From Chitinophaga pinensis (lineage in GTDB: Bacteria > Bacteroidota > Bacteroidia > AKYH767-A > OLB10), in the NCBI GenBank assembly GCA_943332105.1, contig CALQOD010000013.1, forward strand, positions 1-42,272: a stretch of DNA of 42,272 nt, written 5' to 3'. The notes below the pieces were generated by a model. That model saw only the letters and a program-made list of their open reading frames with translations. It searched no databases and was not told where the DNA came from. Of this stretch, positions 16,804 to 42,272 are shown one piece after another; the stretch's first letter is position 1, and each line of letters starts with the position of its first letter. A program made the position numbers and the translations under genes.

Positions 16804-18396
16804 CTATTGCTTAATCAATTTAAAATAGGACTGCTTGGAATTAAAACATTTAACTTCTAAAGTATAAATACCACTTGAAATATCCGAAAGTGAAATATAA
16901 TGTGAATTATTTATTGAAAAAATCAATCTGCCATCTAAATTAAACAGCTTCACATATTCGACATTTTTAAATTCCCCACCATTGAAAGGATTCAATATTT
17001 CAACATTATCTTGTGCTGGATTCGGATATAAGAGAAAACTTTTTTGCGTGCTGGTATTATTAATAATTCCATTAAGATTGTTAAGTTTGACAAACCAAGC
17101 ATCACAACCTCCATGTAAGCCTATTACATCACCATCCAATGAATTAGAATTCCCCCCCAAATACAAACTACCATCTAATTCTTGATGAACAAAGCCACCT
17201 GTTTCTTGACTACTGCCACCCCAGCAATTCTGCCAAATAATATTACCCAATGAATCAATATTAACAACCCAAATATCTCCAATTCCGCCATGATTTCCTG
17301 TAACGTCATAGTCGTATGATGTTGACATACCAGCCATTGTTAATGAACTTCCAGAAGTTTCTTCCAATGTATAGCAATAATCCATATTAGACCCACCAAA
17401 GGATTTTTGCCATTCTAAAATACCATTCTCACTAATTTTAACAATCCAATAATCGGATGTATTATTACCCATATATGCATTTAAAACATCCCCATCATGA
17501 GACCGAGCATAACCACCCACTATATACCCACCCCAACTAACTTTACTAATAGCGTAGGCCTCATCATTCAGAGTTCCTCCAAATGCGTTACTCCAAATAA
17601 TATTACCAATTGAATCAATTTTCAAAAGCCAAAAATCCATATAACCCATAGAATTGTGAATTCCATTAACATCCCCATCATTATAATTAGCAGAACCAAC
17701 TATTATAAAATTCAAACTATCAGTTTCAATAATACTATATGCTTTTTCTTCACCTAAACCACCATATGATTTTTGCCATATCAAAACGCCTCCAGCATTT
17801 ATTTTTAAAACCCAAAAATCGTAATCTCCATGATTATATGTTAAATCTCCATCGTAAGAATTTGAAAAACCAGATATAATAAAATTGCCATCACTTGTTT
17901 GATGTATAGCAGTCGGGCTATCAAACAAACTACCCCCGAAAGATTTTTCCCATTCTATAATTCCATGTTTATTAATCTTTACAATCCAAATATCACTAGT
18001 ATCGACACCTCCATGATGACTTGAAACATCCCCATCTGTGCTGCTTGACAAAGCACAAAAAATATATCCACTATCAATCGTTTCTTCTATATAATTTAAA
18101 CTTTCCCCTCTACTACCTCCAAAGCTTTTTTCCCAAATAATATTACCATTAATATCAATTCTTACAACCCAAACATCACCTAGCGTATGTACACCTGTCA
18201 CATCCCCATCGCTTGAAGTTGTATTGCAACCAAGTACATACCCTCCGGCTTTACATTCAACAGCATCAACAATATAATCACTTGATGACCCACCGAAGCA
18301 TTTGGACCATTGTATTGGTGGAATTTGAGCATGGAGTATACTAACAAAATAAAATAAATTTATAGTTATTAACAGTAAATGTCTATAAATTTTCAT
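16804..18396 (-). CDS. Secreted protein with seven internal repeats and T9SS sorting domain
   Basis: A 530-residue protein with a signal peptide (1-23, ending LHAQ). Seven copies of a roughly 58-61-residue unit follow. Each begins with a W-x-x-x-x-GG motif (WSKCFGG, WEKSFGG twice, WQKSYGG, WSNAFGG, WQKSFGG, WQNCWGG) and contains GGYI/V, SxxxDGDV, an HG segment and DxWVVKI. This suggests a seven-bladed beta-propeller. Residues from about 455 on carry the T9SS type A sorting domain (LYPNPAQDNVEIL ... LFNLDGRLIFS ... SGIYTLEV ... KLIKQ). It is predicted to be exported by the type IX system to the surface or medium. No catalytic residues are evident; a binding role is inference. A -7 box TATATTTG sits at 18432-18439. 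Confidence 0.9.
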   Translation of the reverse strand: MKIYRHLLLITINLFYFVSILHAQIPPIQWSKCFGGSSSDYIVDAVECKAGGYVLGCNTTSSDGDVTGVHTLGDVWVVRIDINGNIIWEKSFGGSRGESLNYIEETIDSGYIFCALSSSTDGDVSSHHGGVDTSDIWIVKINKHGIIEWEKSFGGSLFDSPTAIHQTSDGNFIISGFSNSYDGDLTYNHGDYDFWVLKINAGGVLIWQKSYGGLGEEKAYSIIETDSLNFIIVGSANYNDGDVNGIHNSMGYMDFWLLKIDSIGNIIWSNAFGGTLNDEAYAISKVSWGGYIVGGYARSHDGDVLNAYMGNNTSDYWIVKISENGILEWQKSFGGSNMDYCYTLEETSGSSLTMAGMSTSYDYDVTGNHGGIGDIWVVNIDSLGNIIWQNCWGGSSQETGGFVHQELDGSLYLGGNSNSLDGDVIGLHGGCDAWFVKLNNLNGIINNTSTQKSFLLYPNPAQDNVEILNPFNGGEFKNVEYVKLFNLDGRLIFSINNSHYISLSDISSGIYTLEVKCFNSKQSYFKLIKQ

Positions 18397-33156: not shown

Positions 33157-33164
33157 TAAATTTG
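33157..33164 (+). promoter_or_regulatory. -7 promoter box for the TPP riboswitch transcript
   Basis: TAAATTTG matches TAnnTTTG exactly. Transcription would start about 33168-33172, which is where the P1 stem of the TPP aptamer begins, so the mRNA would start essentially with the riboswitch. Confidence 0.55.
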
Positions 33165-33170
33165 CACTAT

Positions 33171-33241
33171 CACTGGGGTGCCTAAAAGGCTGAGATTATA
33201 CCCATCGAACCTGAAGTGGTTAGTACCACCGTAGGAAGTGC
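33171..33241 (+). ncRNA. TPP riboswitch (thi-box aptamer)
   Basis: The conserved TPP aptamer elements occur in order: CTGGGGTGCC (33173-33182), AGGCTGAGA (33187-33195), ATACCC and ACCTGA (33198-33213), and the P4/P5 region GTGGTTAGTACCACCGTAGGAAG. The P1 stem is CACT (33171-33174) with AGTG (33237-33240). The aptamer senses thiamine pyrophosphate and lowers expression of the downstream gene when TPP is plentiful. The gene controlled is a TonB-dependent receptor starting 40 bases later. A 7-bp hairpin (33244-33250 with 33272-33278) next to the ATG may be part of the switching region. Confidence 0.96.
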
Positions 33242-33280
33242 GATGACGAACCTTTTTCCACCCTCTTATAATTCGTCACT

Positions 33281-35752
33281 ATGAAAAAAACACTCTTATT
33301 ATCGTTAATCTCAATTGCGTTTGCGATGGTTTCATCTGCTCAATCATTTCGTGGAGTTGTAATGGAAAAAATTATTAAGTCGCCTGTAGTTGGTGCTATT
33401 GTCACTTTAAAAACAGACACCAACGGACCATTATTAGCTGCGTGCACGACTAACGAATTTGGCAAGTATTCATTACCCAGCAAAATATCAAAAGGCTATC
33501 TCGAAGTAAAATGTTTGGGGTATAAAAAAATTTATGTCCCATTCGATTTAATTTCTAATCCTAGTCCTGTTATTTACCTCGAGTATACTACTTATACCAC
33601 CAATGATGTTATAATCAATGCTTATTGGTTTAAAAATTATTCTCCTGTTACGCATACGACAATTTCTAAAGAAGAACTACAAAAATCAAATCTTGGACAA
33701 GATGTACCTTATGTTATACAAGATTTACCTTCTGTTGTTGTTACGAGTGATGCAGGAAACGGTATTGGGTACACAGGAATTCGTATTCGCGGAAGCGATC
33801 CAACGCGTATAAATGTTTCAGTTAATGGAATTCCAATTAATGATGCTGAATCGCAAGGAATGTATTGGGTAGATATGCCAGATATCGTTTCCTCCTCTGA
33901 AAACATTCAAGTGCAACGTGGAGTTGGCTCGAGCGTGAACGGTGCTGGATCTTTTGGTGGAAGTATAAATTTGACTAGTAAAAATTTATCGTCTATTGCC
34001 TTTGCAAAAAGTGAATGTTCCATTGGTTCATTTAATACACTAAAGAACAATATTTCTTTTGGAAGTGGATTATTAAATGAGCATTTTGCTTTTGAAGGAC
34101 GTTTATCAAGAATAAAAAGCGATGGCTATATTGATCGTGGCAGTTCTGATATGAAATCGTTTTTTGTTTCTGGCTCTTACAACAGCCATTATCTTTATTC
34201 ACGCATCAATATTTTCAGTGGAAAAGAAATCACTTATCAGAGTTGGAATGGAGTACCTGAATCGAGAATGAATGGAGATGTAAATGCTATGAACGAATAT
34301 ATTATTCGCAATGGATTAGATGAAGAGGAAGCAAACAATTTATTAAACAGTGGAAGAAATTATAATTACTTCTCTTATGCTAATCAGGTCGATAATTATC
34401 AGCAGGATCATTATCAATTCTTGAATACAATACGATTTAATTATAAAACTTCTTTGGACATTAACCTTCACTATACAAGAGGAAAAGGATTCTACGAAGA
34501 GTATAAAAAAGATCAGGCATTGTCGAACTATGGCATAGCCGATATTTATTTGAATGTTGATACAATTATATCGTCTAATCTAATCCGTCAGAAATGGCTC
34601 GATAATGATTTTTACGGAACTACTTATAGTCTGAAAAGAGTGTTGTCAGAAAATTCAAAACTTACAATTGGTGGTGGTTTGAATAATTATATCGGAGGAC
34701 ATTTCGGAACAGTAATCTGGGCACAATATGCAGGCAACTCTGAAATCAATAAAAAATACTATAACAACTCGGCTCGTAAAAGTGATTGGAATAATTACGT
34801 ACGATTAGAGAATTTCTTTTTCAATAGTAAAGTCAACACCTTCATCGATTTGCAATTCAGAAATGTTAACTATTACTTCGACGGATTAAATGTTGATGGC
34901 TCTATAAAACCAGATAATGCCAGCTTACAATTCTTTAATCCAAAGGCAGGAATAGCCTATAACTTTAATTCGAAGAACAGTGTTTTCGCAAGTATTGGAA
35001 GCACGCATCAAGAGCCTAACCGAGACGACTATACGCAATCAACTGCTAAAAGCCGTCCACAGGCAGAACAGTTAACGGATATTGAATTAAACTATCGTTA
35101 TACCGACAAACATTTTTACGGACAAGTAACGCTTTACAACATGACTTACAAAAATCAATTGGTGCTAACTGGCGCTGTGAATGATGTTGGAAATTATACT
35201 CGTAGTAATGTAGCAGATAGTTACCGCAGAGGAATAGAGATACAAACTAAATGGTTGCCTACAGATAAAATTAATTTAGGTATGAACCTTACAATTAGCG
35301 AAAATAAAATTAAGCAGTTTGTTGAGTTTACTGATGAGTATGATGCAGACTACAATTATGCTGGTCAATCTAAAATTGTATTTAACAATATCAACATTGC
35401 TTTCTCCGCTGCTGTAATTGGGAATATCAATTTCACGTATCAGTTTAATGAGCATTTATCGGCATCTATTATTGAGCGTTACATCGACAAGCAATATCTA
35501 GATAATACATCCAATGGAAATCGTGTAATAAAAGCATACATGGTTACAGATGCGCGATTAAGTTACAAACGCTCTACTAAGTGGTGTAAAGAGATTAGCT
35601 TTAATGTATTACTAAATAATATCGGAAGCTCGATGTATTCCTCTAACGGTTACACCTATGGGTACAATGTAGCAGGAAGTCGCACGCAGGAAAACTTCTA
35701 TTATCCGCAAGCGCCTTTCAACGCTTTGGGTCAAATTAGCTTGCTATTTTAG
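33281..35752 (+). CDS. TonB-dependent receptor under TPP riboswitch, predicted thiamine uptake
   Basis: An 823-residue outer-membrane receptor. The signal peptide is residues 1-20 (AMVSSA). A carboxypeptidase-regulatory-like domain covers about 22-105 (FRGVVMEKIIKSPVVGAIV). The plug covers about 125-235 with GYTGIRIRGSDPTRINVSVNG and GSFGGSINLTSK. The barrel runs to the terminal Phe (GQISLLF). The specificity is inferred from the TPP riboswitch directly upstream: riboswitch-controlled TonB receptors in Bacteroides take up thiamine. Thiamine phosphates or precursors are also possible. No inner-membrane thiamine transporter lies beside it; the PnuC at 13.9 kb is paired with a riboside kinase instead. 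The 3' end overlaps rsmA by 17 bases. Confidence 0.93.
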   Translation: MKKTLLLSLISIAFAMVSSAQSFRGVVMEKIIKSPVVGAIVTLKTDTNGPLLAACTTNEFGKYSLPSKISKGYLEVKCLGYKKIYVPFDLISNPSPVIYLEYTTYTTNDVIINAYWFKNYSPVTHTTISKEELQKSNLGQDVPYVIQDLPSVVVTSDAGNGIGYTGIRIRGSDPTRINVSVNGIPINDAESQGMYWVDMPDIVSSSENIQVQRGVGSSVNGAGSFGGSINLTSKNLSSIAFAKSECSIGSFNTLKNNISFGSGLLNEHFAFEGRLSRIKSDGYIDRGSSDMKSFFVSGSYNSHYLYSRINIFSGKEITYQSWNGVPESRMNGDVNAMNEYIIRNGLDEEEANNLLNSGRNYNYFSYANQVDNYQQDHYQFLNTIRFNYKTSLDINLHYTRGKGFYEEYKKDQALSNYGIADIYLNVDTIISSNLIRQKWLDNDFYGTTYSLKRVLSENSKLTIGGGLNNYIGGHFGTVIWAQYAGNSEINKKYYNNSARKSDWNNYVRLENFFFNSKVNTFIDLQFRNVNYYFDGLNVDGSIKPDNASLQFFNPKAGIAYNFNSKNSVFASIGSTHQEPNRDDYTQSTAKSRPQAEQLTDIELNYRYTDKHFYGQVTLYNMTYKNQLVLTGAVNDVGNYTRSNVADSYRRGIEIQTKWLPTDKINLGMNLTISENKIKQFVEFTDEYDADYNYAGQSKIVFNNINIAFSAAVIGNINFTYQFNEHLSASIIERYIDKQYLDNTSNGNRVIKAYMVTDARLSYKRSTKWCKEISFNVLLNNIGSSMYSSNGYTYGYNVAGSRTQENFYYPQAPFNALGQISLLF

Positions 35753-40071: not shown

Positions 40072-40545
40072 ATGGAAGAATACAGAAAAAAATGCTGTTT
40101 GGCCCTTCTGCTCGATGAACAATCGGAGTCGGAAGATATTCTTCATGCTCTTGCTGAGACGCCCTATCATACTGTGATTTGGAAAAGCAACTCGAGTATT
40201 AATCCTAATGAAATGCTACTTCCCGAAGGTCCAATGCCCGAAGTTTTAAATACTGTTTTTGAAGATGGATTCTCGAGAGGATTTCGAAAAGTAGTTATCT
40301 TGAAACCTACTACTGAAATAAACCCAGCATTATTAGATGAAGCTTTTTTAAGTCTGAAACTGCTAGAATGTTGCATTGGTTTAAAAGACAATGGTGATTT
40401 TTATTTACTTGGAATGAATGACTTCCGACCAGAGATTTTATCATTTATACCTCCTGACGATGTAGCGGTGAGCAAAAAAATTATTCGCCGTATTGGCGAT
40501 CAGAAATTAGCCTTGTATAAGACTCCGACTTTGCAGTCTGAATAA
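40072..40545 (+). CDS. Short, degenerate DUF2064/glycosyltransferase-like protein
   Basis: A 157-residue cytosolic protein. The stretch FEDGFSRGFRKVVILKPTTEINPALLDEAFLSLKLLE, followed by CIGLKDNGDFYLLGM, aligns by eye with the TIGR04282/DUF2064 family, a GT-A-fold group whose members have GSDCPDLTP-like and DGGYYLLG motifs. Here the IGSDCPD part reads LKPTTEI and DGGYYLLG reads NGDFYLLG, so the nucleotide-sugar/metal site appears lost. The protein is also shorter than usual (about 200 residues). It may be an inactive or repurposed member. Confidence in the family is moderate. It diverges from serS by about 107 bases. Confidence 0.65.
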   Translation: MEEYRKKCCLALLLDEQSESEDILHALAETPYHTVIWKSNSSINPNEMLLPEGPMPEVLNTVFEDGFSRGFRKVVILKPTTEINPALLDEAFLSLKLLECCIGLKDNGDFYLLGMNDFRPEILSFIPPDDVAVSKKIIRRIGDQKLALYKTPTLQSE

Positions 40546-40555
40546 CTTAACATAT

Positions 40556-40983
40556 TGTACTCTAGCAGTACAGGCTCCTACTTTTTTCTGTAGCAAAAAA
40601 AGTAGGCAAAAATGCCACCGCTGTAAAATAATTGCGGAGCTTACTTCTTGCGCATCGGAAATAACCGAACTCGCAATGTAGGACGGGGCCGACATAGCTC
40701 AAACACCGCTTATTTCTGATCGTTGCTTTCTTCGTCAGCTAATTCCCGCAATTGTTTTAAGGCGGACCCTATTTTTTAATTAATAAAATAAATCGGCCTC
40801 AGTTTATTCGGTTTTTGACGAAGATAAAATTGCGTTAAACAAATTTAGAAGTTCCGAGCCTGTGAGGAAATCACTGAATTTGTAGCAATTTTATCAAGGA
40901 AAAAATTTGCATGCAAAAGAATAAAGTGCAGCCTTGACTTTTTCTTTGGTTCTTTCAATTTGTGTCAAGACAAAAGAAAGAAC
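40556..40983. repeat. Candidate structured interspersed element (non-coding)
   Basis: The stretch is bounded by A/T-rich hairpins: CCTACTTTTTT (40577-40587) with its complement at 40596-40606, and GTTCTTTC (40949-40956) with GAAAGAAC (40976-40983). Inside is a long stem, GATAAAATTGC (40823-40833) with GCAATTTTATC (40885-40895). That stem continues inward with ACAAATT/AATTTGT and TTCC/GGAA. Its base composition (local G/C-rich patches) differs from the flanking DNA. From memory, sequences of this look recur between genes in Bacteroidota genomes, so it may be a dispersed repeat, but copy number cannot be judged from one window. No target-site duplication is evident. Confidence 0.5.
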
Positions 40984-41115
40984 ATTCAATAAATTAATCA
41001 TAACTAGAAAATAGTTATTGAAAACCAATTATTATCATATTCTCTTAGCTATTTTAAAAGTAGCCACTTATTAGGTTGCTTTTATTAACAATTACTCTTA
41101 TACCTAAATTTCCCT

Positions 41116-41148: not shown

Positions 41149-42272
41149 ATGTTAGACTTGCTAAAGAAATTCGAAGAAAAGAAACCAGAAATAATATTTG
41201 AGTGGAACGATGCGTTGACCGATGCTACTGGATGGGTTGTCATTAATTCCTTACGCGGTGGTGCTGCAGGTGGTGGTACTCGTATGCGTAAAGGCCTTGA
41301 CCGTAGAGAAGTGGAATCTTTGGCAAAAACAATGGAGGTTAAATTTACTGTCGCAGGTCCTGCAATAGGTGGTGCAAAATCAGGTATCAACTTCGACCCT
41401 ACTGATCCTCGTAAGCAAGATGTTTTGAAGAGATGGTATAAAGCTGTACTTCCTATTTTAAAACAATACTATGGTACGGGTGGCGATTTATTCGTTGATG
41501 AAATTCATGAAGTCATTCCTATAACTGCAGACTTAGGTCTATTGCATCCGCAAGAAGGTGTAGTAAATGGACATTACGGAAGTTCAGCGAAAAAAGAGCG
41601 CATTCAGAAATTACAAGAAGGAGTTAGTTTATTAGTGGATGATGCGCAATATGTCCCTACTGGTACGCAATATCGTATTGCTGATATGATCACTGGCTAT
41701 GGAGTTGCTGAATCAGTGATTCATTATTACCGATTGAAAAACGATTCTGTAGCTGGAAAGAAAGTGCTAATCCAAGGTTGGGGAAATGTTGGAGCTGCTG
41801 CAGGATTTTATTTAACACAGCAAGGAGCGAAAGTAGTAGGTATTATTGATCGCAATGGCGGACTTACTAACAGTAACGGATTTACGCAAGAAGAAGTAAA
41901 CCATTTATTTAACACAAGAGTTTCAAATATGTTTGATGGATTTACCAAAGATGAAAACATCAATACGAATTTCTGGAATGAGCCTGCAGATATTTTTATT
42001 CCTGCGGCTGCTTCACGTTTAATTACAAAAGAACAAGTGGAAAGCATGCATAAAAACGGATTACAAATGATTGCATGCGGAGCGAATGTGCCTTTTGCAG
42101 ACTCTGAAATTTTCATGGGTCCTATCGGACAATTTGCTGATGAGCATTTAAGTGTTATTCCTGATTTCTTATCGAACTGCGGAATGGCAAGAGTCTTTGC
42201 TTATTTGATGAGCAATCCGAATGATATTAGTGCAGGAGCTATCTTCCAAGATGTTGCTGCAACGATTCAAAA
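41149..42272 (+). CDS. Glu/Leu/Phe/Val dehydrogenase family protein, C-terminus outside window
   Basis: The frame is open from ATG 41149 to the right edge (374 complete codons), so the C-terminus is missing. It encodes an NAD(P)-dependent amino-acid dehydrogenase that deaminates an amino acid to its 2-oxo acid and ammonia. Features are the N-terminal dimerisation domain with LRGGAAGGGTRMRKGL, the catalytic-lysine loop VAGPAIGGAKSG with Lys77, GTGGDLFVDE, and the Rossmann motif GWGNVG at residues 210-215. The split into dimerisation and NAD domains is typical. Glutamate versus leucine/phenylalanine/valine specificity cannot be set by eye. The gene has its own promoter box. Confidence 0.93.
   Translation, partial: MLDLLKKFEEKKPEIIFEWNDALTDATGWVVINSLRGGAAGGGTRMRKGLDRREVESLAKTMEVKFTVAGPAIGGAKSGINFDPTDPRKQDVLKRWYKAVLPILKQYYGTGGDLFVDEIHEVIPITADLGLLHPQEGVVNGHYGSSAKKERIQKLQEGVSLLVDDAQYVPTGTQYRIADMITGYGVAESVIHYYRLKNDSVAGKKVLIQGWGNVGAAAGFYLTQQGAKVVGIIDRNGGLTNSNGFTQEEVNHLFNTRVSNMFDGFTKDENINTNFWNEPADIFIPAAASRLITKEQVESMHKNGLQMIACGANVPFADSEIFMGPIGQFADEHLSVIPDFLSNCGMARVFAYLMSNPNDISAGAIFQDVAATIQ

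Follow-up and report, generated by a model that had tools for sequence, protein, structure and literature searches.

The element described here occupies positions 40556–40983 of the window (the whole stretch of 42,272 nt that was analyzed) and lies in an intergenic region of contig C13 of a 2.77-Mb draft genome. It is preceded by the end of a 157-aa ORF (40072–40545) and followed by an ORF starting at 41149, which presumably encodes a Glu/Leu/Phe dehydrogenase. The limits of the element given in a preliminary description, made from the sequence alone, proved almost exact. The region had also been described as non-coding and, indeed, the longest ORF touching the element has 62 aa, and the element contains no ORF of at least 80 aa. 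The long hairpin proposed at 40823–40895 is present as well, with GATAAAATTGC at 40823–40833, the exact complement at 40885–40895 and more pairing inside, as are the A/T-rich hairpins near both ends, at 40577–40606 and 40949–40983. An ungapped repeat search of the region from 40400 to 41100 returned one inverted pair, which was none of these hairpins, and one two-copy 13-nt direct repeat; the hairpins were missed because their stems are bulged or short, which is a limit of the method. Folding of the + strand from 40550 to 40990 yielded −118.9 kcal/mol vs. −93.6 kcal/mol (SD 5.6) in 100 dinucleotide shuffles, none of which was as good (z = −4.53); for the − strand, z was −2.80, and 1 of the 100 shuffles was as good. 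Two further features were noted elsewhere in the window: a TPP riboswitch at 33164–33254 (66.8 bits, above the gathering score), directly upstream of an 823-aa ORF (33281–35752), and four degenerate 71-nt direct repeats at 17210–18180 within the ORF 16804–18396, which probably encodes a repeat protein.

The order of parts in the element is hairpin end, module A, spacer, module B, and hairpin/pseudoknot end; all coordinates refer to the + strand. At the 5′ end, a mini-hairpin (GTAC-TCTAGCA-GTAC, 40556–40572, outermost pair T40556–A40572) occurs in other copies in compensatory variants (GTAC/GTAC, ATAC/GTAT, TCAC/GTGA). In A2, a plain MAFFT alignment of 10 module A copies, this mini-hairpin is helix 1, with 95.3% of the cells paired and two-sided changes in 2 of 5 pairs; RNAalifold preferred an overlapping AGCC/GGCT pairing. 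Module A consists of the 5′ terminal hairpin and of a second, long and imperfect hairpin whose tip varies. The terminal hairpin (CCTACTTTTTT/AAAAAAAGTAGG, 40577–40606), recognized by inspection and as helix 2 of A2, is 98.0% paired, with a two-sided change in 1 of 11 pairs, in a single copy (L023). The long hairpin (40618–40765, CCGCTG to TAAGGCGG) was delineated with the same alignment, and its variable tip is flanked by the conserved motifs AACTCG (40668–40673) and CTCAAAC (40698–40704). Altogether, across the 10 copies and including the 5′ hairpins, there are 59 pairs, 18 of them with two-sided changes, and 94.2% of the cells are paired vs. 88.2% in shuffles, the measure of further pair types being reached by 19 of 500 shuffles. 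An A/T-rich spacer (40766–40791), not conserved among the copies as judged by inspection, leads to module B.

Module B starts with an imperfect hairpin of about 140 nt (40792–40929); behind it stands another hairpin, the loop of which pairs with an upstream strand in an H-type pseudoknot. The imperfect hairpin scores 168 bits with R1, a covariance model of 40792–40929 derived from 16 copies, the window copy itself having been used to build R1. Its apical part (helices 5–7 of the alignment A4, see below) is the long hairpin of the preliminary description. Three unpaired motifs, GTTAA (40834–40838), GAAG (40848–40851) and ATCA (40870–40873), are largely constant while the surrounding stems vary, with deviations at GTTAA in genome G258 and in some others. 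In A1, a plain MAFFT alignment of 19 B modules, 16 of the 54 consensus pairs display two-sided changes. A larger set, A4, comprises 45 matches from 45 chosen loci (43 distinct rows) and was aligned to the model structure, so that it leans towards the model; in this set, two-sided changes occur in 38 of 45 pairs vs. 20.6 in shuffles, 94.3% of the cells are paired vs. 77.6%, and the covariation is 0.389 vs. 0.137. None of 500 shuffles was as high on any of five measures, and, as a control, structures slid by 1–3 columns paired only 34–53%. Because A4 is fitted to the model, a second model, R2, was built from A4, and a second set, A5, was obtained from the R2 search: 16 matches in 14 loci, likewise aligned to the model structure and leaning towards it, with two places used for R2 (L230, L236), five matches from genera that contributed to R2 (L241, L242, L237, L243, L234) and the remaining nine from two families that gave nothing to R2. 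In A5, 89.0% of the cells are paired and 34 of the 45 pairs have two-sided changes, levels reached by none of 500 shuffles. Two-sided base changes are thus present in both modules where the covariation had been proposed as a check, and stems preserved by matching changes on both sides indicate a real element rather than a chance hairpin. In module B, selection has preserved the fold of one strand through such changes.

The folded strand of module B is the + strand. The RNAalifold consensus of A1 reaches −41.0 kcal/mol on the + strand vs. −23.7 kcal/mol on the − strand, the corresponding values for A4 are −20.5 and −11.0 kcal/mol, and the A4 cells include 116 G·U vs. 35 A·C combinations. Module A reaches a slightly lower energy on the − strand (−47.7 vs. 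−42.7 kcal/mol); because A lacks a preference for the + strand, the strand specificity belongs to B. Nothing in the window except the TPP riboswitch matched an Rfam family at the gathering score, and a search of 10 loci at E ≤ 1 returned seven matches, all below the gathering score and none over B.

The 3′ end (40933–40983) contains the hairpin GTTCTTTC..GAAAGAAC (40949–40983), and the pseudoknot is formed between CTTGAC (40933–40938) and the complementary hairpin loop GTCAAG (40964–40969). In A4, the loop hairpin lies within 150 nt of B in 36 of 45 copies, and in 27 of the 45 the hairpin is accompanied by an exact complement of 6 nt; of the nine with the hairpin and without the complement, four are cut by a contig end. 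Among the complement-bearing copies, the loop is GTCAAG in 14, ATCAAG in seven and TTCAAG in six, each with its own complement, so that the last pair of the pseudoknot is C-G, T-A or A-T, and one such change is found within the window's own genome (L041). A separate scan, with another list of copies and a stricter filter, detected the complement in 25 of 39 copies, and in 10 of 17 from the window's genus. The exact left strand is kept in only 12 of 20 copies of this genus. In seven copies (L011, L012, L034, L042, L043, L045, L046), small complete hairpins (CCCGATAGCTATCGGG-like or GGGTGTAGTAGCTTGCTCACTACACCC) take the place of the left strand or stand beside an altered one, and the orthologous copies L032 and L045 do not have the same left strand.

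These properties of B could also be those of a mobile functional RNA, that is, a transcribed RNA of about 190 nt (a component of a ribonucleoprotein, a ribozyme or a regulator) with a 3′ pseudoknot and a MITE-like carrier. The strand-specific folding with its preference for G·U, the internal loops conserved in sequence amid changing stems and the pseudoknot are all consistent with such an RNA, as are the copies in which, by inspection, B is intact where A has decayed (L041, 5635–5830, and L042), and the different outer parts that carry B in different families. Within the element, the + strand also has one sigma-70-like match (40603–40632), which is weak because 800 bases contain five such matches vs. 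2.5 expected. Against an RNA stand the lack of a match to the Bacteroidota-type promoter pattern in or near the element, the lack of a relation to any Rfam family, the variable position relative to genes, the patchy distribution, and the persistence of 3′-truncated copies (L049 and the second copy in L041). We consider this reading possible, on the unlikely side.

The element is not confined to the window. A nucleotide search, as suggested in the preliminary description, detected at least 18 matches in the window's own genome, the window itself included and two of them (C64) being pieces of one copy. This copy number, like the covariation described above, goes against the refuting condition set in the preliminary description, namely a lone copy devoid of covariation and of a transcript. 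Modules A and B occur together in the window, C37 and C64, and also in C6 and C75, where A is damaged; C17, C103 and one place in C42 have A without a complete B, whereas C34, C42, C62, C35 and C20 have B with a decayed or no recognizable A, and C46 and a further place in C42 contain 3′-truncated pieces of B. All copy numbers are lower bounds, since the best 8 to 40 candidates were scored per genome (the best 8 in the R2 class search) and copies also lie at contig ends. Five of the seven genomes of the genus, including the own one, match at E = 1.7e-53 or better (the others being G001, G002, G004 and G006), and no element was found in G003 and G005. Among all 61 genomes searched, 13 contain any match; in the more distant ones, the matches are for the most part short fragments of the 3′ end. 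With R1, B was detected in 7 of 295 genomes of the class; a sample of the phylum yielded a single genome of 395, the window's own. With R2, B was found in 12 of 395 Bacteroidia genomes, representing 8 of 197 genera and eight families; nine of the 12 carry B more than once, and four belong to families new to R2 (G134; G127, G734 and G747). No match to the element was found in plasmids or phages, nor, with one 22-base pattern, in viral contigs; the same pattern recovered 19 stretches among genome contigs, all titled as Bacteroidetes, Bacteroidia or Chitinophaga MAGs. Carriage by a phage or a plasmid was rejected on the basis of these absences.

Some copies are accompanied by other repeats. A palindrome with G/C-rich arms, GGGTTTAAACCC, lies beside element copies in L041 (1700–2400) and L048 (1700–2310, reverse strand). 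The loci L152, L150, L151, L153 and L042 contain another repeat, characterized by CCATGGGGGGACAGCAGCCCC and AAACGTTTA-like ends, of which near-tandem copies adjoin the element in contig C117 of G004.

The setting of the copies relative to genes bears on the question of whether the element acts in cis, as a riboswitch, leader, terminator or stabilizer of an mRNA, which its intergenic position and its structure might suggest. In the genus, 25 copies or pieces were placed relative to genes, and 23 of them share no more than 30 bases with any ORF of at least 80 aa. The strand of the upstream ORF is the same in 13 cases and opposite in 11, that of the downstream ORF the same in 11 and opposite in 13, with one copy lacking a known neighbor on each side and orthologous copies counted separately. 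This lack of a gene-orientation bias argues against a riboswitch, leader or terminator, and the orientation varies even at orthologous sites. Given also the lack of an Rfam match, a riboswitch or leader was rejected, and we regard cis-regulation in general as highly improbable.

The comparison of orthologous sites bears directly on movement. A copy in contig C43 of G212 is missing at the matching site in contig C2 of its sister species G183, where the flanks are near-identical. This is one site only; about 60 unrelated nt take the place of the element, and the right junction is not clean; a gain in G212 and a loss in G183 are equally possible. At the L079 site, which was left out, the G183 match stops short of the junction and gives way to other repeats, and at the L038 site, the four relatives examined have only one flank in common and no empty site is readable. 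Nine orthologous sites were compared for orientation, which is opposite at four and the same at five. At the window site, the orientation is opposite to that in G001, G004 and G006; because the flanking intergenic DNA differs too, a simple inversion is not claimed, and turnover by recombination is possible. The copy in C64 is reversed relative to that in G001:C145, which is of the same subtype and 91% identical, and G004 is oriented like C64; judging from the sequences, this reversal fits an inversion in place. The orientations are also opposite between L062 and L082, and between L232 and L240, which have one long and one short flank in common. The last two loci come from two species of one genus, and in both the element is upstream of the same kind of gene, which we take to encode an asparagine synthase. 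The orientation is the same for L010/L011, L025/L046, L032/L045, L235/L239 and L055/G212:C75, the last pair differing in subtype. The repeats could, then, be non-mobile, occupying fixed intergenic sites among which recombination merely exchanges the copies, and the sites with a different subtype or orientation (the window vs. G001/G004/G006, L055 vs. G212:C75, and L062 vs. L082) fit such exchange. However, the absence at the G183 site and the patchy occurrence across families require gain or loss, and we find this explanation improbable.

Variants of the same plan recur elsewhere. In G183 and G212, the 5′ end, TTTACTTTTTTCCTTGATGAAAAAAGTAAACAAAAAAATCAAG, reads by inspection like the 3′ end in inverted form. 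In G747, there is a 415-nt element with both ends, an AACTCG[hairpin]CTCAAAC module as in A of the window, and B. At L232, which comes from a family other than that of the window, AACTCG[hairpin]CTCAAAC occurs together with inverted hairpin ends. Two B modules are arranged back to back in inverted orientation in G734 and G747. In G258, B is enclosed by another inverted repeat, TAGTTGAGCCTCAAAAAG, which ends with TA and has 28 matches in that genome with up to three mismatches, vs. three for a reversed control pattern. Nine of these matches are no more than 240 bases away from where a stretch stops, which is read as a contig end, as expected because repeats break draft assemblies. The TA at the ends may be a duplication or part of the repeat. 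In the window's genus, the two hairpin ends have no clear match to each other, and no target duplication is apparent by eye.

Inverted ends, as in G183/G212, the TA-ended and abundant TAGTTGAGCCTCAAAAAG, and the deletion derivative L216 are what an ordinary DDE-type MITE would exhibit, that is, an element whose terminal inverted repeats are cut and pasted by a transposase, its hairpins being incidental. The absence of a visible target duplication in the window's genus speaks against this, and such an origin leaves the two-sided changes deep within B unexplained. Furthermore, DDE_3, which we take to be the IS630-like family, was absent from all seven genomes searched for it. An IS630-type owner was rejected for that reason, the search having covered DDE_3 alone among the DDE families. 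Taken together, an ordinary DDE-type MITE appears distinctly unlikely.

In RAYT repeats, a Y1 transposase gene is flanked by the same repeat. We detected 31 matches to Y1 transposase genes, distributed over all 13 genomes examined, including G003 and G005, in which no element was found. Apart from short weak pieces near two genes in G047, none of the 30 Y1 loci checked is flanked by element ends. The Y1 loci of the own genome carry other hairpins, such as CAACCCCGCCATACGGCGGGGTTG at L051, and ownership of the family by one of these RAYT genes was rejected. An integron attC site was also discarded: in attC sites, RYYYAAC and GTTRRRY are paired at the base of the hairpin, whereas, by inspection of the window sequence, GTTAAAC lies in an internal bulge of B. 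No gene was found between element ends at the places inspected. Because draft assemblies break at the repeat and only some of the ends were followed, an autonomous partner could be missed. That the element is a remnant of a coding mobile element finds no support, given the short ORFs (62 aa at most), the places inspected, which have no gene between the ends, and the lack of an adjoining Y1 gene.

Compared with described systems, the family combines familiar with unfamiliar traits. The bacterial MITEs covered by one account (Correia/NEMIS, ERIC, RUP) are about 100–200 bp long, mostly have terminal inverted repeats and often end with TA; their transcripts are described as forming long stem-loops, for which cleavage by RNase III has been proposed in Neisseria (PMC2229807). 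The element resembles them in being small, non-coding, intergenic, dispersed and devoid of a transposase of its own, and the TA termini of several of them are also present in the G258 copies (PMC2229807). It differs from them in its length of about 430 bp, its two folded modules and terminal pseudoknot, its many two-sided changes across families and, in the window's genus, the lack of a clear terminal inverted repeat or target duplication (PMC2229807). With the REP/BIME repeats and their RAYTs, it shares many-copy palindromic units, inverted pairs (BIME) and an intergenic location (PMC2817692, PMC3733652). REPs, however, measure 20–40 bp (PMC3733652), whereas B with its end comprises about 190 nt and no Y1 gene examined carries element ends. 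Like the structured RNA families of Rfam, the element has a conserved fold, compensatory changes and conserved loops, but, unlike them, it has no match at the gathering score. The main text of a catalogue of stem-loop repeats contains no words starting with bacteroid, cytophag, flavobacter or porphyromonas (PMC2267715), and a literature search, which included five stretches of the element sequence and had a coverage mostly outside subscription journals, returned no paper recognizably on the family.

We conclude that the element is a copy of an apparently undescribed, non-coding, folded, dispersed repeat family with a patchy distribution in diverse Bacteroidota. The family is real and probably mobile, and the suggestion that the element is REP/MITE-like and dispersed is borne out by its dispersal, by presence and absence at one site and by a structure under selection. 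It is likely that we are dealing with a non-autonomous mobile element selected for its fold, the folded strand being either single-stranded DNA or an RNA. The folded single strand may be recognized, through the terminal hairpins and the conserved internal loops of B, by an enzyme supplied in trans, which may move or re-insert the element. REP/BIME repeats are handled as single-stranded DNA by a HUH/Y1-type (RAYT-like) enzyme, and a putative enzyme of this type, acting on single-stranded DNA, is favored here because of the strand-specific folding, the hairpin ends, the inverted pairs and the lack of a clear target duplication in the genus; we rate a single-stranded-DNA mechanism at somewhat below an even chance. 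The best explanation of the whole, an old non-autonomous mobile family of Bacteroidia with a fold recognized in trans, has roughly an even chance of being correct. Alternatively, B might be a self-contained RNA of about 190 nt whose internal loops are conserved and which carries a pseudoknot at its 3′ side; it would spread across Bacteroidia in the manner of a transposon, in changing shells, these being the A hairpin, the inverted partner and the TA-ended repeats, and would outlast the decayed shell; taken jointly, this appears unlikely. The readings considered here overlap, and their probabilities need not sum to one.

With the covariance models, the recognizable ends, and a site at which one sister species has a copy and the other lacks it, the family is now defined and searchable. 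It comprises a large fold that is under selection across families of a class while sequence, outer parts and orientation vary, and it brings within reach of a test the long-standing question of whether bacterial structured repeats are kept because movement requires the fold or because of the role of an RNA in the cell.
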